A stretch of 64,000 bases of DNA, taken from Halobacteriales archaeon YIM A00010 (GTDB lineage: Archaea > Halobacteriota > Halobacteria > Halobacteriales > Haloarculaceae). Each line of letters begins with the position of its first letter. The stretch's first letter is position 1. The stretch lies in the NCBI GenBank assembly GCA_025041175.1, contig JAKCFJ010000004.1:682001-746000 (forward strand), given 5' to 3'. A model generated the notes under the pieces. That model was given only the letters and a program-made list of their open reading frames with translations. It had not been told where the DNA came from and did no database searches. The position numbers and the translations under genes were made by a program. Positions 12,993-64,000 of this stretch are shown one piece after another.

Positions 12993-14942
12993 ATGAGCCA
13001 AGCAGATCAGAGAGGAAAGGATGTGCGGATCTCTGTGTCGAACATCGGTGGCATCGACGACACGGAGGCAGCGTTCCGTCCCGGGGTGACGGTACTCGAG
13101 GGACGGAATGCGACGAACCGGACGTCACTGCTGTGGGCCATCAAGACGGGACTCGGCAGCGACGAGATCTCGCTGAAGAGCGACGCGGACAATGGTTCAG
13201 TCGAACTGACTATCGACGACGAGACGTACACGCGGACACTCACACGGAACGGAAACACTGTCGTTACCGGTGGCGATCCGTATCTCGACGACCCCGAACT
13301 GGCTACCCTCTTCGCCTTCTTGCTCGAATCGAACGAGGCGCGACGGGCGGTCGTCCGGAACAACGATCTGCACGAACTCATCATGCGTCCGGTCGATACC
13401 GCCGAGATCCAGGCGAAGATCGAGTCGCTCACGGAGAAAACGCGTCGACTCGACGATCGACTGGAGGAAATCGACGCGATCGAACGCGAACTGCCCGACC
13501 TGAAACAGCGTCGAAATGAACTGGAGACCGAGATCGAAAAACAGGCGAACCAACTCGCCGAGAAGGAGGCGGAGATCGAATCACTCAACGCGGACGTCGA
13601 GGAGACCCGCGAGGAGAAGAGCCGCCTTGACGCGAAGTTCGAGGATCTCCGTGACCGGCGATCCGAACTGGACGAGGTCCGGTCCGAACTCGAGCGAAAG
13701 CGACAGAGCCTCGATTCGCTGACCGAGCGGCGATCCGGCCTCGAATCGGAGCTTGCTGAGATGCCGGAAGCTCCCATGGGCGAGATCACCGACATCGATT
13801 CCCGCATCGACCACCTCCGAGGGGAACTCCAGGCGACGAACTCGACGATAAACGAGATCCAGACGATCATCCAGTTCAACGAGGAGAAACTCGACGCGTC
13901 GAACGACGAGATCGCCGAGACCCTCGGTGTAACCGACGAATCGTCTGAGGCAGTCACCGACCAGATCCTAGCGAGCAACGAGATTGTCTGCTGGACCTGT
14001 GGGTCGGAAGTCGAACAATCACACGTCGAGGAGACGCTCGATCAACTCCGCGGACTCAACGAGGAGAAACTCACCAGGAAACGTGAACTCGACGAGGAGA
14101 TCGACGAACTGGAGGACGAGAAGATCGTCTACCAGGAGAAACAGCGCCAGCGCGACCAGATGGACAGCGAGCTCGAGACGATCGACGAGAAGATCGAGCA
14201 GCGGGAACAGCGGATCGAGACACTCCTGGAACGAAGTGACGAACTTGAGGACACTGTCGCTGACCTGGAGTCGACCGTCGAAGATCTTGAAAGCGACAAG
14301 TACAGCGAGATCCTCGATCTGCACAAGGAGGCCAACCAGCTCGAGTTCGAACTCGGTCAGTTGGAGGAAGAACGCGACGGCGTCCAGCAGGACATCGATC
14401 AGCTCGAAGACGAAGTCGAGGAACGCGATCAGCTCGAGGACCAGCAGAATGAGGTAGAAGAGGAGCTGGAGGAGCTGCGGACCCGAATCGAGCGCATCGA
14501 AGAACAGGCTATCAACCACTTCAACGACCACATGGACACCGTCCTCTCGATCATGGAGTTCGAGAACATCGAACGTATCTGGATCGAGCGGACGCAGGAA
14601 CGGGTCCGCGAGGGTCGCCGGAAAGTCACCCAGACCGTATTCGATCTCCATATCGTCCGTTCGACGGACGAAGGTACGATGTACGAAGACGCTGTCGAGA
14701 ACCTGAGCGAGAGCGAGCGCGAGACGACTGGACTTATCTTCGCCCTAGCGGGCTATCTCGTCCACGACGTGTACGAGGAGGTCCCGTTCATGCTGCTGGA
14801 CTCCCTCGAAGCGATCGACGCCGACCGAATCGCAACGCTGGTCGAGTACTTCAGCGATTACGCGGAGTACGTCGTCGTCGCGCTCCTACCGGAGGATGCC
14901 GCCGCCGTCGACGCTGATCACCAGCGACTCGCGGACATCTAA
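12993..14942 (+). CDS. archaea-specific SMC-related ATPase-like protein
   Basis: A 649-residue SMC/Rad50-like protein. The N-terminal head has VLEGRNATNRTSLLWAIKTGLG, where a Walker A would be, but without the usual Gly-Lys-Ser/Thr; this degenerate form is typical of the archaea-specific SMC-related group. Long heptad-rich coiled coils (residues ~150-320 and ~345-520, rich in E, L, R and Q) flank a zinc-hook-like pair CWTC at residues 333-336. The C-terminal head has the signature-like ENLSESERET, a Walker B-like PFMLLDSLEAID and a D-loop. It follows rdfA closely and very likely forms a functional pair with it. Chromosome, plasmid or cell-shape roles are possible. Confidence 0.85.
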   Translation: MSQADQRGKDVRISVSNIGGIDDTEAAFRPGVTVLEGRNATNRTSLLWAIKTGLGSDEISLKSDADNGSVELTIDDETYTRTLTRNGNTVVTGGDPYLDDPELATLFAFLLESNEARRAVVRNNDLHELIMRPVDTAEIQAKIESLTEKTRRLDDRLEEIDAIERELPDLKQRRNELETEIEKQANQLAEKEAEIESLNADVEETREEKSRLDAKFEDLRDRRSELDEVRSELERKRQSLDSLTERRSGLESELAEMPEAPMGEITDIDSRIDHLRGELQATNSTINEIQTIIQFNEEKLDASNDEIAETLGVTDESSEAVTDQILASNEIVCWTCGSEVEQSHVEETLDQLRGLNEEKLTRKRELDEEIDELEDEKIVYQEKQRQRDQMDSELETIDEKIEQREQRIETLLERSDELEDTVADLESTVEDLESDKYSEILDLHKEANQLEFELGQLEEERDGVQQDIDQLEDEVEERDQLEDQQNEVEEELEELRTRIERIEEQAINHFNDHMDTVLSIMEFENIERIWIERTQERVREGRRKVTQTVFDLHIVRSTDEGTMYEDAVENLSESERETTGLIFALAGYLVHDVYEEVPFMLLDSLEAIDADRIATLVEYFSDYAEYVVVALLPEDAAAVDADHQRLADI

Positions 14943-16060
14943 CTAGCGCGAACGGCACTCCTCGCGCTGAAGCCATCCATACTCGTCGCTGCGAGCGTCT
15001 CCGTCCGGTATGGCGAGTGCTGGCAAAAATACACCACCGGGGCGATCGACCAGTGATATATTCGACCCAACTCTATACATAAATGACACATATAGTATTT
15101 ATAAATGATATATTATATAGTTGGTGTTTGAGGTGAGAAGACGGACCCTGTTCATGGACACCGCTTCCATCGAGGGCGAACGACTGTATCAACTCCTGAG
15201 AAGTTTCTGTATCGGCGTGCTGAACCAGTTCGAAGCCGATAACGTTCTGTGTAGTACCTTGTGAAGAACATGTTTGGCACGGGTTCCGACCACCGTGGTT
15301 CACATCCAAACGCAAGCCCATTCGCTTACATGTACTTGACATATGATCCCGTCTACCGTACGCCCAGATCGATCGTCCATCAGTACGCATCCCGTCGTCC
15401 GCACCGTCGACGTGATCAATAGGCATCTGATCGGTAAAAAATAAATACAATACCTAAAATATATGTGTGATCGAAGTACAGCTCTGTATCGAGCGTCGCA
15501 ACAGTCACTGCGTTGTTTTTGCCGTACAGACTCGACACCATTACAGTCGCGCTTCTGTAATGGGATCGTAGGGCATCGAACGCGCAGTCAGTACGACGAA
15601 CCCGCGTTGGGCCCATAGACTCCCGAAAAGCTCAGTGTTCGGTCCGTGTAATCCCTGGGCACGTACTCACTGTGGAATAATACGGATATCAGATATACAG
15701 GAGTTATTACATCTATTCTGACTGATCACGGTCTCGTCGAACACACGAGCCGAATGCCTCCCAGTGTCCATCAACCAAAGTCAGACGGAATCGAAATCGA
15801 GCGACCCGGTGTCGGTGACGATGATCGGCATTCGGGACCACCAGTCAGCAACGGGACCGATATCCGACTGGACAGTGAATCACGGGAAGATGACCGTCGG
15901 ACCGGAGTTGAAAGCCCCGAGACCGTAGAGCCACCGTCCGAACCGGTTGAGAACGCAGCCGTATCCATCCAAAACATCCACCAATCCACAGACTGTGGCC
16001 CGAGTGGCAACCACAGATATGCACAAATATTATATGGGTGGGAAGTGACAGTTTGCAGAG
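14943..16060. other. 1.1-kb AT-rich region without an assignable gene
   Basis: There is an open minus-strand frame at 15073-15450 with a CQTC pair and a plus-strand frame beginning at 15754, but neither has a recognisable domain or typical haloarchaeal codon use. A run of AT-rich sequence with possible TATA boxes lies around 15065-15120 and 15440-15475. Another possible TATA element at about 16025-16035 precedes the MBL gene that starts at 16061. Confidence 0.4.
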
Positions 16061-16759
16061 GTGACGCTTCCAGGGTACGTTCACACGTTTCCGTTCGAGG
16101 TGGAGATCATCGGTCGGGAAATGACGCTGCACCCCGCGGCGATCGAGACCGAGCGCGGACTGCTGTTGCTCGACGCTGGTATGCCCCACACGGTCGGTGC
16201 GATCGTCGACGGGATCGAAGAGACGGAATTCGCCGTCGAGGCGGTCGACATGGTACTGGCGACACACCAGGACGGCGATCACGCCGGTGGGATCTCCGAG
16301 ATCGTCGAGCGCTCCGGGGCGACGGTGTTGGCTCACGAGACCGCCGCACCTGTCGTCGACGGATGCGAACGCCCTCGGACGGCCACCGACGAAGAGCGGT
16401 ACCCGCCGGTCCGGGTCGATGTCGAGTTCAACGGACGACTAACAATCGACACGCGGGCAGGACCGGCTGAGGTGATCGAGACGCTGGGTCACACGCCGGG
16501 ACACGTCTCGGTGTACCTGCCCGGCGAACGGCTCTTGATCGCCGCCGACGCGCTCGGCATCTACCCCGACGTCGGACTGGCAGCGCCCGAAGATGAGGTG
16601 ACGATGGTTCCAGATCGGGCACTGGCCTCGATCGAACGGCTCTCGGAACTGGCCATCGACAGCATCCTCTGCTACCACGGCGGTCTCACCGAGAAGGGTT
16701 CAGATAGACTCGCCGAGATCGTCGCCGCCGATGAAGATTCGCCGCTGCAATCGTTGTAA
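16061..16759 (+). CDS. MBL-fold metallohydrolase
   Basis: A 232-residue metallo-beta-lactamase-fold hydrolase starting with GTG at 16061. It shows LLLLDAGMPHTVGAIV, the metal-binding THQDGDHAGGIS (the haloarchaeal HxDGDH version), ETLGHTPGHVSVYLPG with the third His, and CYHGG near the C-terminus with the last. It is likely a thioesterase or lactonase-type enzyme with two metal ions in the cytoplasm. A short AT-rich promoter ends about 25 nt upstream. It is followed at once by an LLM fragment and may mark an old deletion between the two. Confidence 0.8.
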   Translation: MTLPGYVHTFPFEVEIIGREMTLHPAAIETERGLLLLDAGMPHTVGAIVDGIEETEFAVEAVDMVLATHQDGDHAGGISEIVERSGATVLAHETAAPVVDGCERPRTATDEERYPPVRVDVEFNGRLTIDTRAGPAEVIETLGHTPGHVSVYLPGERLLIAADALGIYPDVGLAAPEDEVTMVPDRALASIERLSELAIDSILCYHGGLTEKGSDRLAEIVAADEDSPLQSL

Positions 16760-17991: not shown

Positions 17992-19317
17992 ATGGATGGT
18001 TCCACGCCCCCACGCGACGCTGATCTGGTCGAAGCGATGCGGGGAGCGAACAGACGAACAGACTTCGGCGGACGCCGGGCGGGCGAATACACCCACTGGA
18101 TCGAGGAACAGCTTTCGTGGAAGGAGTCGTGTTACCTCGGAGATTGGTCGTTTCTCGCGAACCTCCGGCTCGAGGGACCGGAAGCGATCGACCTTCTCGC
18201 CGACCTGAGCATTAACTCCTTTCAGGAGTACGCCGTCGGACAGGGGAAACACCTCGTACAGTGTAATGAAGACGGCGACGTGATCGCCGAAGGGGTGCTC
18301 GTTCGGGTCGGCGAAGAGGAGTTCATCGTACACGGCGTCCCAGCGTACTGGACCGCGTATAACCTCGAAAACGGAGCGTACGACGCGACCAAGGAGTACC
18401 GCGACACGTTCAACTACCAGGTTCAGGGCCCGAATTCGATGCAGGTCTTCGACGTGATCGCTGGTCACTCGCTTCGCGATGTCGACTTCATGCACGCCGG
18501 GCAGATAGAGATCGCTGGCCACGAGTCCAGAGCCGTCCGGTTCGGTATGTCCGGAGAGATCGGGTTTGAGCTTCACGGTCCTGCGGAGTACGCTGAGGAG
18601 GTCTGGGACACCATTCTTGAGGCCGGACAGGAGTTCGGGCTCCGTCGTCTCAGCGTCAAGACGTCGTCGATCAACCAACTCGAAGCCGGAATCCCGTCAC
18701 GAGTCCGTGATTTCATCTCTGCCATTTTCGAAGACGACATGGAGGGTTACCGCGACTACCTGCGTGAGACCGCGACGAGGGACCTCATTACCCACGCGAT
18801 CGAGGGGAGCTTCGACGCTGACGACATCAGCGCGTGGTATCGAAACCCCATCGAGTTGGGGTGGGGACACTACTGTAAGTTTGATCACGACTTCGTCGGT
18901 CGAGAGGCGCTCAAGGCCGAAGCCGACGATCCACAGCGCACGACCGTCACCCTGGAGTGGAACTCAGAAGACGTGACCGACGTGTACGCATCCCTCTACG
19001 AGGAGGGCAACACGTACAAACAGATGGATATGCCACACCAACAAAAGCGGGCGATGATCGCCGACAGGGTTCTGAAGAACGGCGAAGACGTCGGTGTCGC
19101 GACGATGCGCGGCTACAGCTACTACTTCCGGGAGATGTTGTCGTTGTGTACGATCGATGTCGAACACAGTGAACCGGGAACGGAAGTGACGGTGCTCTGG
19201 GGCGAGGGGGAGAACTCGAGGAGTCCGACTGTCGAGGGCCACATCCAAAAGGAGGTCCGTGCCACGGTCGCACCCATACCGTACAAGAAAGACAATCGCC
19301 GCGCCGACCTCTCATAG
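17992..19317 (+). CDS. ligM: LigM-like tetrahydrofolate-dependent aryl O-demethylase
   Basis: A 441-residue member of the GcvT/LigM family. Known members move the methyl of an aryl methyl ether (vanillate, 3-O-methylgallate or syringate in Sphingobium) to tetrahydrofolate. Visible LigM-type blocks are FNYQVQGPNSMQVFDVI, RAVRFGMSGEIGFELHG, ITHAIEGSFDADDI, CKFDHDFVGREAL, EWNSEDVTDVYASLY, the late VGVATMRGYSYYFREMLSL and VRATVAPIPY. The length is close to LigM (~470). The position equal to the proposed catalytic Tyr of LigM appears not to be Tyr here (VKTSSINQLEAG), so the substrate may differ. The ATG at 17992 begins MDGSTPPRDADLVEAM; upstream in-frame sequence looks non-coding. Confidence 0.8.
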   Translation: MDGSTPPRDADLVEAMRGANRRTDFGGRRAGEYTHWIEEQLSWKESCYLGDWSFLANLRLEGPEAIDLLADLSINSFQEYAVGQGKHLVQCNEDGDVIAEGVLVRVGEEEFIVHGVPAYWTAYNLENGAYDATKEYRDTFNYQVQGPNSMQVFDVIAGHSLRDVDFMHAGQIEIAGHESRAVRFGMSGEIGFELHGPAEYAEEVWDTILEAGQEFGLRRLSVKTSSINQLEAGIPSRVRDFISAIFEDDMEGYRDYLRETATRDLITHAIEGSFDADDISAWYRNPIELGWGHYCKFDHDFVGREALKAEADDPQRTTVTLEWNSEDVTDVYASLYEEGNTYKQMDMPHQQKRAMIADRVLKNGEDVGVATMRGYSYYFREMLSLCTIDVEHSEPGTEVTVLWGEGENSRSPTVEGHIQKEVRATVAPIPYKKDNRRADLS

Positions 19318-19364: not shown

Positions 19365-20522
19365 CTAGGACGCCGCTGACTCCGTGGTTTCGACGGTATA
19401 CGCCTGCAGCGCTGGCACGACCTCCTTGACGAAGCGGCAGTGGTTTTCGTTGCCCTTTTCAAAGGGCAAGTCACCGAACTGAGCGCCGACGTACATCGTC
19501 CCGAAACCATTCAGCTGATCGTACTGACGCTTGAGTTGCTCTGTGACGTCGTTTGGCGTACCGATGATGATCTCACCCGACTCGATAAACTCGTCGAGGT
19601 CGAAATCAACGGCTTTCCTGCCGTGGTGGTTTAGCATCTCGTAGTGGGTCTCCCTGTCCCACTCGTCCTTGTCCGACAGTCCGACGGCCACGCCCCGATG
19701 GATCCCGCCAAACAGTTTGTTCTAGTGGTATTCGAGGTGTTTCTCGGCCTCTTCGCGGGCCTGTTCTTCGGAGTCTGCAACGTACACGGTTCGACCGAGC
19801 ATGAAATGTTCGTCGGTAGGAGTCCAGTCGAACTCCTCCTCGGCGATCTCGCGGTAGGCGTCGAAGACCTCCTTCGTCTCGTTCATCCCGAACGCCTGGG
19901 CGATCGGGATTCGTCGCTTGGCGGCAAACCGGGCGGACGTCTCGCTCCCGGAGGGCATGCAGAACTGTGGGTGCGGCTCCTGGTACGGACGGGGCCAGAT
20001 GGTGATGTCCTCGTACTGCCAGTGTTCGCCGTCCCAATCGAAGGGTTCGTCGGCCGACCAGGCCTTCTTGATGAGCTCGTACGCCTCCTTGAACCTGCTT
20101 CGGGAGTCATCGAGGTCGACGTTGTAGGCCGTGTACTCCATGGGGATTCCCCTAGCGATCCCGGCGAGGACTCGGCCCTTACTGAAGGTGTCCAGCATCG
20201 CCAACTCCTCGGCGACCCGAACCGGATTCCCACGGATCGGGACAACGTTTCCAAGGAATGCGAGTGTCAGTTCATCAGTAATAGCGGTAGCGTGGGATGC
20301 GGTTACGATCGGCGAGGGGTTCATCGAATACGCCGAGTAGTGGTGCTCGTTCCAAGCGACGCCGTCGTAGCCGTATTCTTCGATGCGTTCGACTTGCTTG
20401 AAGAACTTCTCGTACTGATCGGCACCGATCTCGGCCTCGTAATCGTCCCCCCTAAACGGCCACACAGCCGGATCGGATTCTATTTCGCCCCACCTCGGAA
20501 GCTGAAGACTGATAAACTCCAT
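19365..20522 (-). pseudogene. LLM-family flavin monooxygenase with an internal TAG stop
   Basis: A luciferase-like (FMN-dependent, two-component) monooxygenase of about 385 codons. Visible parts are MEFISLQLPRWGEIES, EEYGYDGVAWNEHHYSAY, EELAMLDTFSKGRVLAGIARG, TIWPRPYQEPHPQF, then IIIGTPNDVTEQLKRQYDQL and a normal C-terminal end. Codon 267 is TAG (19722-19724), and the frame stays open and family-like on both sides, so this looks like one point mutation in an otherwise intact gene. The upstream ATG at 20522 is the usual family start. The divergent flavin reductase at 20823 is a plausible FMNH2 donor. Read-through or an alternative meaning of TAG cannot be excluded but is not expected. Confidence 0.85.
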
Positions 20523-25170: not shown

Positions 25171-26127
25171 TCAGTTCGTCTCGAGCGGCGGGAGCATCTC
25201 CTCGATGCGCTCGACATCCACTTCGAGCCAATTCGGCACTTTCAGTTCCTCGCCGTACTCGTCCGGGGACTGATCGATTTCGAACCCGGGACCGTCGGTG
25301 GCGTACTCGAACACCGTTCCGCCGGGTTCGGTGATGTATCGCGAGTGGAAGTAATCACGATCCTTAGTCGACGTCGTAATGTAGCCGTTCTCCCGGAGGA
25401 TATCGCTGATCTCGTCCTGCTGCCAGCCGTCTTTGACGCGGTAGGCGACGTGCAGGTACGTCCCGACGCCCATGACGCCCTGGGGGGCGTTCGGGCGGAT
25501 GAGAACGTCGACTATCGTCGCACACGGTGCGTCCCCCGGTGCTTCATACCGGATGCGGTCGCCCTGCTGGGGGTGCGTGGCCTCGCCGACGCGGTCCCAC
25601 CCCATCGTTTCGAGGACGTCCATCGTCCCTGCCGGGTCGTTCGAGTGGACGGTGGTGTTGAACATCCCACGAATGGCGTGCTCTTCGGGCACGTCGTTGC
25701 CCGCCGTGTACGGTTCAATCTCCGACTTTCCCGTCACGAGTTCGAACGGCAGTCCGTCCGGGTCGGTAAACTCGAGCGCTGTCTCGTCGAACCGTTCGTC
25801 GACGGTGTAGTCGACTCCGTGGTCCTCGAACCGATCCTTCCAGTATTCGACGGAACCGTCGGGGATCGTCAGCCCCACAGAACGCATCATTCCTTTACCG
25901 ACCATGCCGTCTTCCATCGGCATGTTGGTCATCGGGAAGTAGGTCACGATCGTCCCAGGGGTTCCCTCCTCGTCACCGTAGTAGAGATGGTAGATCTTCT
26001 CCGGAACGTCGAACCGAACCGTCCGCTTGACGAATCGCATTCCGAGAACGTTCGTAAAGAAGTTGTAGTTCTCCTGTGGGTCATCACAGAATGCCGTCAC
26101 GTGGTGGATGCTGGGTATTTCTGGCAT
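25171..26127 (-). CDS. ring-cleaving dioxygenase, MhqO/LinE-like glyoxalase family
   Basis: A 318-residue two-module VOC dioxygenase. The start MPEIPSIHHVTAFCDDPQEN supplies the first metal His. FVKRTVRFDVPEKIYHLYYGDE, HAIRGMFNTTVHSNDPAG and RYITEPGGTVFEYATDGPG, with the metal Glu, match proteins that open hydroquinone or chlorohydroquinone rings (MhqA/MhqO, LinE). It probably needs Fe(II). The reading frame continues upstream of 26127 but only into remnants of other genes; ATG at 26127 is the natural start and has an AT-rich promoter 25-40 nt before it. Confidence 0.85.
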   Translation of the reverse strand: MPEIPSIHHVTAFCDDPQENYNFFTNVLGMRFVKRTVRFDVPEKIYHLYYGDEEGTPGTIVTYFPMTNMPMEDGMVGKGMMRSVGLTIPDGSVEYWKDRFEDHGVDYTVDERFDETALEFTDPDGLPFELVTGKSEIEPYTAGNDVPEEHAIRGMFNTTVHSNDPAGTMDVLETMGWDRVGEATHPQQGDRIRYEAPGDAPCATIVDVLIRPNAPQGVMGVGTYLHVAYRVKDGWQQDEISDILRENGYITTSTKDRDYFHSRYITEPGGTVFEYATDGPGFEIDQSPDEYGEELKVPNWLEVDVERIEEMLPPLETN

Positions 26128-26318
26128 GGTATGATACAACGGGACATATGCAGGGAGTGCAATAATACTTTTCGTTACTCCCTCCTGGAGAGACGATCGT
26201 GTTTCGTTGTTGTCCTCGAATCGAAGCAGCCACTCGTCGTCGGGATCGGGTTCGTGAAACGGGGTCGGTTGAAACCCGGTCGCGGTCGTGGAACGGATTA
26301 GGGACCGCCGGTGTTGAC

Positions 26319-26658
26319 CTACCCCCCGTCGACGAGGATCCCCTGGGCTGTTATGTACGCCGAGAGTTCGCTGGCCAGAAGTTTGGCCATCGACGAACAT
26401 CGAGTCCAGCAGACGACCGAAGTCCGGTTCGTCGACGCCCAACTGGTCTTGGATCGAGTCGCTGGTCAGACCGACCTTGTGACCGACGACCGAATCCCTG
26501 TCGTCGATCCGGTGATTGATGAAGCGGGACTGGATATCGTAGGCGTCCTCGATGGTAAGATCGTGACTTGCCGTGAGGCGACCGATCGGGTCACCAGACT
26601 CGAACGCCTCGTGTAGTCGGGCTGCCAACTCGTCGCGCATAGATTCGTCTGTTGACAT
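26319..26658 (-). pseudogene. deletion scar: MhpD-type N-terminus fused to SDR C-terminus
   Basis: From ATG 26658 the frame reads RDELAARLHEAFESGDPIGRL, then IEDAYDIQSRFINHR and VVGHKVGLTSDSIQDQLGV. This is the start of a 2-hydroxypenta-2,4-dienoate hydratase/decarboxylase (MhpD family). At DSMFVDG (about 26398) the homology ends, and in another frame the DNA gives AKLLASELSAYITAQGILVDGG followed by a stop at 26319, the typical C-terminal end of a short-chain dehydrogenase. So about 190 residues of MhpD and most of an SDR gene are missing between the two pieces. It is non-functional and records a deletion. Confidence 0.8.
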
Positions 26659-26957
26659 AATGGTGCAAATATCCGCTACCAACTAATACGTTGTGTATTC
26701 TTCGGGAAGCGCCGTTCTCCGGTGCTCCGTCGCCACTCCAACGAAGCGACGGTGTTTCGATCTTGAGAACACCCCGGATGCTACCGTGAAGGGATGGCTC
26801 GCTCGATGCTGGCGCAGTCAGGGTTACTCGTCCAAGATGGGGCCGTCGCGATCTCCATCGACAAACGGTTCCCGGGCGTTATCGGTGGCGATGTGCGAGA
26901 CTTGAGTGGTGTACACTCGACTGAGGTCGTGTGCATCGTGTGGGAGTGAGACGTCAT

Positions 26958-35622: not shown

Positions 35623-37338
35623 TCAGAACAGTCCCGAGATCGTCTCGTTCTCGTCGATGTCCATGTGTGCGGCGGCCGGGTCGTCGGGCAGACCGGGCAG
35701 AGTCATGACGTCGCCGGTGAGCACGACGAGGAAACCGGCACCCGCTGACGGATACACCTCCCGCACGTCCAGCGACCAGCCCTCCGGCGCTCCCTTCTTG
35801 CTCGGGTCGTCGCTCAGCGAGTGGAACGTCTTGGACATGCAGACCGGCACGTCGTCGAGTCCGAGTGTCTCGATGCGTTCGATGTCGTCCTCGGCGGAGC
35901 CGACATAGGTGACGCCGTCCGCGCCGTAAATCTCGGTCGCAACGGTCTCGATTTTCTCTTTGATCGGGTCGTTGACGTCGTACAGGGGCTGAAAGTCCGA
36001 CACACTGTTGGCGGCGTCGACGAGCGACGTGGCGAGGTTGAGGCCGCCCTCGCCACCCTCTGCGAAGACGTTCGATTCGGCGGCACGAACACCGAGAGTC
36101 TCCCGGCAATGATCGAGGACCGTCTGGATTTCGGTGTCGGTGTCGTGGGGGAAGCGGTTGATGGCGACGACGACCGGGATACCAAACATCTGGAGGTTTC
36201 GGACGTGTTTGTCGAGATTCTTGAATCCCCGAATGACAGCGTCGATATCCTCGGCCTTCAGATCGTCGACATCCGACGGCCACATCTCCTTGCCGTGGTA
36301 CTTGAGCGCCCGGACGGTGGCCACGAGCGTGACTGCGTCGGGTTCCATGTCGCTGAAGGAGCAGACGATGTTCATGAACTTCTCCGCACCGAGATCGGAG
36401 CCGAAGCCGGCCTCAGTGATGAGGTAGTCCGAGAGATGAGCGGCGACATCGTCAGCGATGAGCGAGTTAGTACCGTGGGCGATGTTGGCGAACGGACCGC
36501 CGTGGACGAGCGCAGGCGTTCCTTCGGTCGTCTGGACGACGTTCGGCTTGATGGCGTCGCGGAGAAGGATCGTGGCTGCCCCGGTCGCATTGATGTCGTC
36601 GACGGTGATCGGGTCGCCGTTCTCATCGTAGGCGACGATGATGCGGGCGATGCGTTCTTTGAGATCATCGAAGTCGGTGGCGAGACAGAGGACGGCCATC
36701 AGTTCGGAGGCAGCCGTCAACAGGAATCCGTCTTCACGGGCTCGCCCACCTGTCTCGCCGAGACCGACGACCGTCTCGCGGAGCGCCCGGTCGTTCATGT
36801 CGATGGCCCGCTTCCACTCGACGGACTTCGTGTCGACGATGGGTTCCTCGTGCTGTCGGATGTGGTTGTCGAGCATCGTTGCGATCAGATTGTGTGCGGT
36901 GGTGAGCGCGTGGAGGTCGCCGGTGAAATGGAGATTGATGTCCTCCATCGGGAGCACCTGTGACCAGCCGCCGCCTGCGGCCCCACCCTTGACCCCAAAC
37001 ACCGGACCGAGAGACGGCTCCCGGATTGCGACGAGTGCGTCCTTGCCGAGTTGAGAAAACGCTTGCCCGAGACCGACGGTCGTGACCGTCTTGCCCTCGC
37101 CGAGCGGCGTCGGGGTCATTCCGGTGATTAGAATGAGATTCGCCTCCGCATCGCTCTGTGTCCGGATTCGCTCGATGGCCTCGGTCTTGATCTTGGCCTT
37201 GTCCGTCCCATACAGCTTGAGGTCGTCCTCGGACAACCCGAGCGGTTCGACGATTTCCTTGATGTGGTCCTTCTCGATCGACTGTACGATCTCATAGTCA
37301 GTCGGGAAGGAGGCGTCACTCCCCTCTGATGCTGTCAT
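35623..37338 (-). CDS. fhs: formate-tetrahydrofolate ligase
   Basis: A 571-residue 10-formyl-THF synthetase. TPTPLGEGKTVTTVGLG is the ATP-binding P-loop, FGVKGGAAGGGWSQVLPM and DINLHFTGDLHALTTAHN are the hallmark segments, and VVVAINRFPHDTDTE is the late conserved strand. It interconverts formate, ATP and THF with 10-formyl-THF. Most haloarchaea with folate use other routes for one-carbon units, so its presence beside LigM-like and MetF-like genes suggests handling of methyl groups removed from methoxy-aromatics; the SYK-6 counterpart is ligH. The start at 37338 (MTASEGSDASFPTD) matches the family; earlier codons are unrelated. A TTTATTAA box lies ~30 nt upstream. Confidence 0.92.
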   Translation of the reverse strand: MTASEGSDASFPTDYEIVQSIEKDHIKEIVEPLGLSEDDLKLYGTDKAKIKTEAIERIRTQSDAEANLILITGMTPTPLGEGKTVTTVGLGQAFSQLGKDALVAIREPSLGPVFGVKGGAAGGGWSQVLPMEDINLHFTGDLHALTTAHNLIATMLDNHIRQHEEPIVDTKSVEWKRAIDMNDRALRETVVGLGETGGRAREDGFLLTAASELMAVLCLATDFDDLKERIARIIVAYDENGDPITVDDINATGAATILLRDAIKPNVVQTTEGTPALVHGGPFANIAHGTNSLIADDVAAHLSDYLITEAGFGSDLGAEKFMNIVCSFSDMEPDAVTLVATVRALKYHGKEMWPSDVDDLKAEDIDAVIRGFKNLDKHVRNLQMFGIPVVVAINRFPHDTDTEIQTVLDHCRETLGVRAAESNVFAEGGEGGLNLATSLVDAANSVSDFQPLYDVNDPIKEKIETVATEIYGADGVTYVGSAEDDIERIETLGLDDVPVCMSKTFHSLSDDPSKKGAPEGWSLDVREVYPSAGAGFLVVLTGDVMTLPGLPDDPAAAHMDIDENETISGLF

Positions 37339-37783
37339 CTCACAACTATCTTTTATCGAAGCGTTAATAAAGTTATCTTCACGAATAAATATGAGGGAGC
37401 CACGTCCCCAGGCCCGCATTCGGCAAGGCTGAGAGACGACTGCAACCAGTATACGGTATCGGAACTACGTTCTGTCTCGACGATCGCAATCGACATCGTT
37501 TACCTCGAACTCGGGGAAAGGATCGCTGTCGGGTACAGACTGCGTAGACCCTCGGCGCGGTCGGGCGTTCCAGGTGGCCAAACCGTTTCGTCTGAGGGGT
37601 AGGCAGCGGCTTTATAGGAGAATACGCCGGGCATCACGTCGAATACCACGAGAAACGGGCGTGGTGGGTCCTTACGGACGGCGCTATGGAGTTGGCAAAT
37701 GCTCCGACCCACGTTCTGGTTGCGTTACGATAGGGAAATCGGTGTCAGAAGCGTCCGGTTCGGTGCCTGAACATCCATCAACC
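37339..37783. other. spacer with a short MBL-gene relic
   Basis: About 445 bp without a gene. Around 37630-37675 the DNA matches codons of the MBL gene at 42206 (its EHHEERAWWVL part, 42925-42965): here HVEYHEKRAWWVL can be read, with frame breaks on both sides. The rest shows no recognisable gene. The fhs promoter lies at its left end. Confidence 0.5.
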
Positions 37784-60802: not shown

Positions 60803-60854
60803 TAAGAGAGAGATCAATCCTGACAATGAGTACTGACAAGTGCTGGTGTTCGAA

Positions 60855-61817
60855 ATGACTCCGGAACTAACAGAGATAACTGTCGTCGGTGACGACGATA
60901 CCGGCCTTCTCGCGCGCATAACGTCGTTGCTGTTCGATCGCGGTATCAACATCGAGGACATGGACCAGGCCGTCAGGGACGGGCTGTTCCGGATGACGAT
61001 GCACGTCGACACGACGGGGATGGAGAGTTCCAGGGACGCGCTCCGTGATGACCTCACGGAACTGTGTGAGGAACTCGGCGTGGACGTGCAGATCCGTTAC
61101 CCGGCCGAGTCCGACACGCAGTCGATCGCTGTTCTCGTCACGAAGGAGAGTCACTGCCTCACGTCGATGCTCAAGGAGTACGCTGACGGTGCTAATGATG
61201 CCAGCGTCGAAGTGGTCATCGGGAACCACTCCGATCTCGAACCGATCGCCGCGAAGTACGACGTGCCGTTCCACGATATCGGTGACGAGAAGGGGTCACC
61301 CGACGAGGATGAACTGCTCGACCTGTTGTCGGAGTACGACATCGATCTGATCGCGTTGGCTCGATACATCCGCATCCTGAGCCCGGACATCGTCTTCCGC
61401 TACGAGAGTCGCATCATCAACGTCCACCCATCGCTTCTGCCCGCGTTCCCCGGCGCGAAAGCGTACAGGCAGGCCATTGAGAAGGGCGTCCGCATCGCTG
61501 GTGTGACGGCTCACTACGTAACGCCGGATCTCGACCAGGGACCGATCATCACTCAGCGCGCGTTCAACGTTCCCGACGACGCGAGTAGAGCGGATCTCCA
61601 GGAACGGGGACAGCCGCTCGAAGCACAAGCCCTGGTCGAGGCGATCCGTCTCCACCTAAACGATAACGTCGAGGTCGGGCGTGGCCGGACACACGTGTGG
61701 AACGCCGACGAGGCCGATCTCGGCCTCCCGAGCGCGATCAGTCAGTTGAATCCGTCGGCACCGATCGACGATCAACTCACCGATTCACAGTATTCGGTTG
61801 GAACGGCCGACGACTGA
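60855..61817 (+). CDS. purU: formyltetrahydrofolate deformylase
   Basis: A 320-residue two-domain protein. The N-terminal ACT domain has TEITVVGDDDTGLLARITSLL; the hydrolase domain has VVIGNHSDLEPIAAKYDVPFH, INVHPSLLPAFPGAKAYRQA and AHYVTPDLDQGPII, with the catalytic Asn, His and Asp of formyl-THF hydrolases. It converts 10-formyl-THF to THF and formate, freeing the cofactor. A C-terminal ~35-residue acidic tail follows the usual end. It is divergent from the hydroxyacid dehydrogenase and convergent with metF. An in-frame GTG at 60840 is an alternative start. Confidence 0.9.
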   Translation: MTPELTEITVVGDDDTGLLARITSLLFDRGINIEDMDQAVRDGLFRMTMHVDTTGMESSRDALRDDLTELCEELGVDVQIRYPAESDTQSIAVLVTKESHCLTSMLKEYADGANDASVEVVIGNHSDLEPIAAKYDVPFHDIGDEKGSPDEDELLDLLSEYDIDLIALARYIRILSPDIVFRYESRIINVHPSLLPAFPGAKAYRQAIEKGVRIAGVTAHYVTPDLDQGPIITQRAFNVPDDASRADLQERGQPLEAQALVEAIRLHLNDNVEVGRGRTHVWNADEADLGLPSAISQLNPSAPIDDQLTDSQYSVGTADD

Positions 61818-61945
61818 TCCCGGTGGCATCGGCTGCTCGATTTCTTTTCCTGTTCTTCGGCCCGTCACCGTCGAACGGGTCTCACAAACACCGCATCGAA
61901 CACGACTGTCTCACGGCAGCGTCCGGGGACTCGCTCGCGTCGCCC

Positions 61946-62803
61946 TCATGTCTTGATTCGGGACTGTCGCCACTCCTCCGTGTCCGGCACCTGGTTGAAC
62001 GTGTAGACGTGGATGCCGCGGATGCCGTACTCGGGGTCGGCGGTGTACGGTGCGAGACCGTCAACGAGGTTGTCGGGCCGGTATCGCCCGCGTGAGCCGA
62101 CGAACTGGCGGATGAAGCCGAAGATTCCGCTCGTCTTCGTGAGAAACCGAATCGAATCGCCGACGCCGACCTTCTTGGAGATACCCAGTAGCTTCTCGTA
62201 CTTCATCACGCCGGGGATACCCACCTCTACCGGGAGGTTGACGCCACGATCCCGGACCTCCTCGATCCAGTTGACGACAGCGTTGGAGTCGTAGCACAGT
62301 TGCGTCGCAATGTACGTCGCGTACGGTGCCTTGTTCTCCATCGACTCGGCGAGCGTCTCGTCGGAGAGGAAATCGTGGCCTTCGGGATAGCCCGTGATTC
62401 CTATCTCCTCGAACTCGTATTCGAGGGTCTCTAGCGCGACGAGAAGGTCGTAGGCGGACTCGAACTCGCCGATCGGTTCCTCGCGGTCGCCCCCTGGCAC
62501 GAAGATGTCCTCGATGCCGACGGCCGTGAGCCGTTCGCAGATGACGGCGAGCTGCTCCTCGTTGTGTACGTATCTCGCGGAAATGTGCGGAACGACCTCG
62601 TAGCCGTCCTTTGCCGCCCGTTCTGCGGCGTCGATCGTCGCTTCGAGCTCTAGTGTGGGCGACGCTGTGATGGTTACGGTTGCCCCGTCCGGTAGATGTT
62701 CGACCTGCTCGTCGAAGCTCTCGAACGGCATCAGTTCGAAGCGGGCGTCGGCAAGCAACGACGAGACGGTGTCGGCCGACGCAGCCGAGGGTACGCTAGC
62801 CAT
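61946..62803 (-). CDS. metF: methylenetetrahydrofolate reductase-like protein
   Basis: A 285-residue MetF-type TIM barrel. It has ARFELMPFESFDEQV, ATVTITASPTLELEATIDAAERAA, VVPHISARYVHNEEQLA, GIEDIFVPGGDREEPIGEF, ITGYPEGHDFLSDE and TYIATQLCYDSNAV, the folate and FAD binding core. In this setting it would oxidise 5-methyl-THF to methylene-THF. Several residues near the N-terminus differ from bacterial MetF, as in demethylation-linked homologues. Translation from 62803 (MASVPSAASADTV) is more plausible than from further upstream. A LigM-like gene lies upstream on the same strand, 201 bp away, as in the bacterial ligM-metF arrangement. Confidence 0.85.
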   Translation of the reverse strand: MASVPSAASADTVSSLLADARFELMPFESFDEQVEHLPDGATVTITASPTLELEATIDAAERAAKDGYEVVPHISARYVHNEEQLAVICERLTAVGIEDIFVPGGDREEPIGEFESAYDLLVALETLEYEFEEIGITGYPEGHDFLSDETLAESMENKAPYATYIATQLCYDSNAVVNWIEEVRDRGVNLPVEVGIPGVMKYEKLLGISKKVGVGDSIRFLTKTSGIFGFIRQFVGSRGRYRPDNLVDGLAPYTADPEYGIRGIHVYTFNQVPDTEEWRQSRIKT

Positions 62804-63004
62804 CGCTCCCTCCGACGGATCTGCGGGCTTGCTTGTAACGAGCCGTGATCTCTCTCGGTTCGATCCTCTGACCAGTCGACACTCTAGCCTGACTCGATGG
62901 GCACATCGTTTGTGTGGAACAGGATCACACACATAAGCTTTGCTCTCATCGGGCCCACGACGGCGCGAACACGCACCCGACGATTCGGACACAACTGGCT
63001 CGGT

Positions 63005-64000
63005 CTATCGTCTATCCTCGGTGTACGGAACGGGCGCGACGGTCGCGTGGATCTCGGTCTGCTCGTGCCGTTCGATCGCGGGATTTCGGGAGCCGTCGGA
63101 ACTACCCCAGACGAGCGTGACCTCCGTGCCGGGATCGGCGTATTCGACGTCGACGACGGCCAGCGACAGCAGTTCACGTTCGTTGACCATGTACGCCGCC
63201 CACATTGACATCCCGACTGCCTCACCGTCTTTCGACACGGTGTCGTGGTGGGACGCGGACCGCCACGGCACGGGGAGATCGACGAACTTGTTCGTGGGTC
63301 CCTCGCGGAACAGGGAAGCATACACGTCGGCGAGGTCGTCGGCGTTCCATTCGAGGGTCACTTTCTTCCGATCGGGGTCGTCGATCTCCTGTTGCAGCGC
63401 TGCCTTGCCGACGAAGCCGTGGTCGAAGTCGACGATGTGGTCGTAGCCGAGTTCGACCGGCGTCACGTAGTAGTCGGTGATGTCGTCGGAGTTGAGGCTG
63501 CCAGCGATCGAGTAGTGGTACTCGATGTGGCGGGCGTCTAGCCACTCCCGGTAACCGCGCATCTCCTCGCTCTCGTACACGGCGGGCAACGGCATCCCGA
63601 CCCACCCCGAGATGACGGCGGAACTCCCGTAGCTCTTCGCGCCTAGCTGACGAAGTCCGTACCTCTCGCCAGCGTCAAGCACCGACTCTTTGACGGTCTC
63701 GGCGTCCTCCCACGGGCCCCAGAACTCGAAGCCCGCCTCGCCAGCCATTCCATGGCGCAACGCGCGAACCGAACGCCCCTCGATCGTCACGTCTGCGAAG
63801 TTGAAAAAGGGGATGTCGGGCAAGGGGTCTTCCGTCACGTCTTGCATCAACTGGACGGCGTTCGGACCCTGTAGTTGGTACCGGTAGTTTCTCGGCGGTC
63901 CGTCCCGAACACCAGATGTCGCATCCCGATCGGTCGTCACGTCGTAGTCACCGGTCTCCACGTTGTACTGGACCCAGTTGGGTGCTTGTGGAGGACCGAC
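63005..64000 (-). CDS. ligM: LigM-like tetrahydrofolate-dependent aryl O-demethylase, 5' end outside the window
   Basis: The C-terminal ~330 residues of a LigM/GcvT-fold demethylase; the gene continues past base 64000. It is nearer to Sphingobium LigM than the copy at 17992: VQYNVETGDYDV, RYQLQGPNAVQLMQDV, VRALRHGMAGEAGFEFWGPW, SYGSSAVISGWVGMPLPAVY, GYREWLDARHIEYHYSIAGSL, VDFDHGFVGKAALQ, TLEWNADDLADVYASLF and VGMSMWAAYMVNERELLSL. The codon at 63629-63631 is Tyr, at the place of the catalytic Tyr of LigM, and the neighbouring PLPAVY is conserved. With metF just downstream and purU nearby it should remove aryl O-methyl groups to THF. Exact substrate (vanillate-, gallate- or syringate-like) is open. 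Confidence 0.88.
   Translation of the reverse strand, partial: VGPPQAPNWVQYNVETGDYDVTTDRDATSGVRDGPPRNYRYQLQGPNAVQLMQDVTEDPLPDIPFFNFADVTIEGRSVRALRHGMAGEAGFEFWGPWEDAETVKESVLDAGERYGLRQLGAKSYGSSAVISGWVGMPLPAVYESEEMRGYREWLDARHIEYHYSIAGSLNSDDITDYYVTPVELGYDHIVDFDHGFVGKAALQQEIDDPDRKKVTLEWNADDLADVYASLFREGPTNKFVDLPVPWRSASHHDTVSKDGEAVGMSMWAAYMVNERELLSLAVVDVEYADPGTEVTLVWGSSDGSRNPAIERHEQTEIHATVAPVPYTEDRR

Follow-up and report, generated by a model that had tools for sequence, protein, structure and literature searches.

An open frame in the window, by which we mean the whole 64 kb stretch of contig C4 analysed here from a genome of about 6 Mb, encodes a relative of the O-demethylase LigM that has serine where LigM carries Tyr247, which, from LigM structure work, we take to be the catalytic residue. 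Is this protein a LigM that has lost its acid, a transferase of another chemistry or an enzyme that is no longer active? The window holds gene families typical of aromatic catabolism as well as C1-folate genes (Table 1), and an earlier note on this DNA had described the gene, called 17992 here after its first position, as one of two LigM paralogues differing at the catalytic tyrosine. The protein, whose closest relatives are haloarchaeal, so that its host is taken to be a haloarchaeon, is very probably an intact tetrahydrofolate (THF)-dependent C1 transferase of a Tyr-less class. Our preferred explanation, to which as a whole we give a probability of about 0.5, is that this class is older than LigM, transfers its C1 unit at the methylene level and would use a His87/Arg105 relay.

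Table 1. Features of the 17992 gene, its sister copies and C1-folate genes of the region
Feature	Position	Strand	Remarks
Predicted Tyr-less GcvT/LigM-fold THF-dependent C1 transferase, 441 aa (17992)	17992..19317	+	Pfam GCV_T, E 3e-37; AlphaFold pLDDT 86; LigM top PDB match
Trp52 codon	18145..18147	+	LigM Gln57 column; class-specific switch
His87 codon	18250..18252	+	LigM Gln93 column; SesA H82 by spacing; class-specific switch
Arg105 codon	18304..18306	+	SesA R100 by spacing
Glu193 codon	18568..18570	+	LigM E215; SesA E189; invariant folate-site Glu
VKTSSINQLEAG motif	18655..18690	+	Ser225 at LigM Tyr247/SesA Y221 column; Gln229 at SesA H225 column
Asp240-Phe241	18709..18714	+	In three-residue insertion confined to Tyr-less class
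Formate-tetrahydrofolate ligase (FTHFS)	35623..37419	-	Closes C1 route in region
Formyltetrahydrofolate deformylase-like (PurU)	60840..61817	+	ACT + formyl transferase
Methylenetetrahydrofolate reductase (MetF)	61946..62992	-	Pfam MTHFR; directly downstream of 63005 copy, 12-base gap
Tyr-bearing LigM/DesA-like paralogue (63005)	63005..64000	-	Cut by window end; 463-codon open frame in genome
Third copy, Tyr-bearing	G000:C4:749415-750662		3.4 kb past window end

Tyrosine column and class signature

Both open frames of the earlier note and the strings quoted from them, VKTSSINQLEAG (17992) and SYGSSAVISGW (63005), were confirmed, but the genome has three copies rather than two, the third lying outside the window; identity is 63% between this and the 63005 copy and 41% between either of them and the 17992 protein. 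A phmmer search against the PDB placed Ser225 of the 17992 protein opposite LigM Tyr247 (5tl4/5x1i, E 3e-73; native LigM residue numbers are the 5tl4 chain numbers minus 4), and MAFFT alignment of 43 relatives with LigM gave the same column, with Ser in 17992 and Tyr in the 63005 copy, so the difference between the two is real; the third copy also has Tyr here. The motif lies in helix 222–232 of the AlphaFold model of 17992. All orthologues (L035, L036, L037, L056 and L057; about 70–75% identity) carry Ser at the column, which rules out a sequencing or assembly error at the motif.

The accompanying statement that LigM-type blocks are otherwise kept holds for the folate-binding core (E215, R205 and F188) and fails for Q57, H60, Q93, D106, W256 and Y309, which are replaced in 17992 and all kept in the other two copies. 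The 17992 protein conserves Glu193 and Arg183 of the folate site. A substitute pocket tyrosine, sought by sequence only, yielded one class-specific candidate, at residue 241 in the DY of an insertion; this position is Phe in 17992 and in three members of its six-member clade, and was rejected as the substitute tyrosine. Other clade-invariant tyrosines of 17992 mostly align with Tyr-class residues or sit elsewhere in the chain.

Across 152 family members aligned with LigM (from haloarchaea, Actinomycetes, Sphingomonadales, Rhizobiales, other genomes and plasmids), the column holds Tyr in 121 and lacks it in 31. The Tyr-less members also have His at LigM Q93 (30/31, compared with 8/121 Tyr members), Trp at Q57 and at Y309, no Trp256, mostly Glu at D106 and mostly Arg at 111, together with a three-residue insertion that is confined to this class and ends in DY in most members. 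At the class-specific places 17992 reads W52, H87, E100, R105, I234, D240-F241 and W291; in place of LigM H60, which 90 of 91 Tyr-class representatives keep, it has Phe. The Tyr-less proteins are a class with linked active-site switches, not scattered mutants.

Fold, rooted tree and linkage with metF

The best PDB matches of the 17992 model (pTM 0.87; a Tyr-class haloarchaeal relative, L052, was modelled at pLDDT 84, and both models are good) are LigM entries, mostly at TM 0.80–0.86, followed by GcvT; LigM is the top PDB match by sequence as well. The protein resembles LigM (NF047885; PDB 5tl4 and 5x1i-n; vanillate/3-O-methylgallate O-demethylase) in fold (TM 0.83–0.86), in about 36% of its residues and in E215 and R205, and differs from it in lacking Tyr247 and the six replaced residues named above, in its three-residue insertion and in having no metF neighbour. 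With the GcvT/DMGDH folate domain (PF01571) it shares a folate-binding domain, the absence of Tyr at the column and an LEA-type motif, but it is only about 20% identical to GcvT and misses the NCBIfam GcvT cut-off (72.7 of 300 bits). No lipoyl-protein partner, a GcvT trait, was seen near 17992; a separate GcvT-like gene lies at C1:574203. The NCBIfam equivalog cut-offs for LigM (580 bits) and DesA (800 bits) are likewise missed by 17992 (316.7 and 336.4), as they are by the full-length 63005 copy, whose scores (484.6 and 540.2) are nevertheless far higher; LigM itself scores 921 bits. Profile score alone makes Tyr-less proteins look like LigM/DesA-type demethylases. If the earlier phrase "not a demethylase" is read as a dead or non-folate enzyme, it is unlikely to apply, because the folate domain is matched and the E215 and R205 positions are kept. 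A literature search on haloarchaeal vanillate demethylases returned no relevant paper.

The tree was rooted with proteins from the same genome that resemble GcvT, DmdA and dimethylglycine dehydrogenase; of these, the GcvT-like and dimethylglycine-dehydrogenase-like ones have no Tyr at the column. Tyr-less lineages come first. The LigM/DesA-type Tyr class forms a single nested clade without the three-residue insertion, and the LigM class has the Tyr-less clade of haloarchaea as its sister. The outgroup attaches among the Tyr-less lineages on long branches, so the exact root within these lineages is unsure. Because the Tyr-less class is basal, the most likely course is a gain of Tyr on the branch to LigM, not its loss in 17992, the Tyr-less state being the older; loss of Tyr from a LigM ancestor was rejected on the rooted tree together with the coordinated switches. 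This suggests that the LigM tyrosine mechanism was added late to a GcvT-like ancestor; the Tyr-less class now extends to archaea. The idea of another substrate or another acid therefore pointed in the right direction, but its framing, as a LigM paralogue with a single altered catalytic residue, gives way to a distinct class with a coordinated signature and a basal place in the tree.

One member, at 14899-16233 of locus L158 (a Halobellus limi plasmid), has Trp and Arg at the 221 and 225 columns and Tyr at 100. In the rooted tree this single lineage is the sister of all Tyr-class proteins, and it is possibly an intermediate.

An enzyme that produces 5-methyl-THF needs MetF, and one that produces 5,10-methylene-THF does not. 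Linkage with metF, a trait of LigM/DesA O-demethylases, is present at the 63005 copy and absent at 17992. When each metF within 6 kb was assigned to its nearest family member, it fell to 0/31 Tyr-less and 55/121 Tyr members, to 0/29 and 38/93 after dereplication at 80% identity (p 4e-6), and to 0/10 and 27/37 among members with PurU or FolD nearest (p 4e-5), a contrast that is at clade level because the trees show no more than two or three switches of the Tyr state, and that cannot reach significance when counted as two independent comparisons (an independent-pairs sign test had only two pairs and no power). Three Tyr-less loci (L159, L091 and L086) do have metF within 6 kb, but a Tyr paralogue is closer to it. 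Tyr-less genes stand in PurU–enzyme–FolD clusters in L051, L042 and L108 and in an enzyme–PurU–FolD cluster in L047. Within 6 kb of 17992 the window has no C1 gene, and over the same distance its orthologues likewise have no PurU, FolD or MetF.

This linkage bears on the alternative that 17992 is a THF-dependent demethylase after all, taking a methyl group from an O-, N- or S-methyl substrate to give 5-methyl-THF with no Tyr acid, as in the more distant fold relative DmdA. LigM being the closest characterised structure, the sister position of the haloarchaeal Tyr-less clade to the LigM class and the presence of MetF elsewhere in the same region would all agree with it; yet metF adjoins no Tyr-less member, LigM Q57, H60 and W256 are lost together, and the His/Arg signature is held in common with published demethylenases, and we consider a demethylase unlikely. 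Three marks, namely the residue at the Tyr column, the His87/Trp52/Trp291 signature and the absence of metF, provide a simple rule that may split two chemistries within one family, probably methylene and methyl transfer. That the Tyr-less class transfers methylene rather than methyl has, in our judgement, an even chance of being right.

As observations on the region itself, FTHFS, PurU and MetF occur together with LigM/DesA-type enzymes in one archaeal catabolic region (35623-37419 and 60840-62992), and MetF and PurU are conserved beside the Tyr copy also in L052, L053 and L055.

Residues shared with methylenedioxy demethylenases

SesA, whose substrate is sesamin, and BrdA, which opens the methylenedioxy ring of berberine, are both THF-dependent (Takeda et al. 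2017, PMC5547118). The residues listed for SesA comprise five proton donors (R81, H82, R100, R179 and H225) and three THF contacts (D95, E189 and Y221); the berberine-active BrdA proteins keep H82, R100, R179 and H225, with Y221 only in BrdA1/2 of BD3100 (PMC5547118). From the published numbers and spacing, with one indel, SesA H82, R100, R179, E189, Y221 and H225 correspond to H87, R105, R183, E193, S225 and Q229 of 17992. The spacing match and the BrdA pattern place SesA Y221 in the LigM Tyr247 column, so active THF-dependent enzymes without this Tyr are already known. The 17992 protein thus has the equivalents of the first four residues and, as in most BrdA, no Tyr at the Y221 column, and it departs from SesA and BrdA at the H225 column, where all six members of its clade (the window, L035, L036, L037, L056 and L057) have Gln229 and nearly all other Tyr-less members have His. 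With Tyr absent and His225 replaced by Gln, the clade has neither published acid at these two sites. Two members, L160 and L086:5354, have both Tyr and His225 and branch among the Tyr-less lineages, where a SesA-type residue pattern would be expected.

In the explanation that we prefer, THF would receive a C1 unit at formaldehyde (methylene) level, donated for example by a compound with a methylenedioxy ring, to give 5,10-methylene-THF, a route that would call for FolD and PurU and not for MetF; His87, with Arg105, is predicted to take the proton-relay role of LigM Tyr247. The change of His225 to Gln229 would imply a further change, of substrate or of acid, within the six-member clade of 17992. 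The clade perhaps does something further removed than the methylene transfer of its class, and we tentatively picture it as a haloarchaeal type of folate-dependent C1 transferase that dispenses with both the LigM Tyr and the SesA/BrdA His225, has a substrate new to the fold and uses His87/Arg105 or a group of the substrate as acid. The missing His225 and the lack of nearby PurU, FolD and MetF in this clade count against the preferred explanation, as does the fact that the neighbours of the haloarchaeal orthologues do not clearly point to a methylenedioxy substrate.

Gene neighbourhoods

In the window, 17992 adjoins two luciferase-like monooxygenase genes, a flavin reductase gene and alpha/beta hydrolase genes, with ring-cleavage-type genes around them. 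In five other haloarchaea the orthologue adjoins genes for a TatD-like hydrolase, a BNR-repeat protein and a small DoxX-like protein, and three of these loci also have an FAA hydrolase and an Amidohydro_1 enzyme that is deaminase-like (PRK08204 subfamily, above cut-off). This cluster is absent from the window, the two neighbourhoods overlapping only partially, in regulators and ring-cleavage-type genes. The orthologue clusters, with their Amidohydro_1, FAA and TatD-like enzymes, and the GcvT-like character of the Tyr-less state would suit an aminomethyltransferase-like reaction, in which the neighbouring amidohydrolase would supply an N-C-N or N-CH2 compound and the enzyme would take a methylene or formimino carbon from it, as GcvT or glycine formiminotransferase does. 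We regard this as distinctly improbable, since no such cluster surrounds the window gene, whose neighbours are the luciferase-like monooxygenase, flavin reductase and ring-cleavage-type genes named above, and its bacterial relatives lie near aromatic-metabolism enzymes, read by eye as VAO-type oxidases, Rieske oxygenases and a hydroxyquinol-type dioxygenase.

A paralogue that has lost its catalytic residue and is decaying or inactive, for which the interrupted neighbouring genes and the joint absence of the LigM Tyr and SesA His might speak, is very improbable given an intact reading frame with normal codon-position GC, 71–75% identity with the same Ser/Gln pair across six haloarchaea, conserved folate-site residues and a gene neighbourhood conserved in five orthologues.

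Two neighbouring genes have irregular frames. The luciferase-like monooxygenase gene at 19365-20522 (-) has one in-frame TAA after residue 266, with the frame open on both sides. The VOC-type ring-cleavage-like gene at 25171-26682 (-) begins with what reads like a hydratase N terminus (IQSRFINHRID...VVGHKVGLT), possibly a fused or truncated remnant.

Among the other genomes, Halobellus captivus (G299; loci L036, L038, L039, L073, L074 and L076-L080) has 15 family members in a 3.4 Mb genome, an expansion unusual for an archaeon in which Tyr and Tyr-less members occur together. Candidatus Formimonas warabiya DCMF (L050), a reported anaerobic degrader of dichloromethane and glycine betaine, has one Tyr-less member, which adjoins genes for a LysR regulator and a DASS-like transporter.
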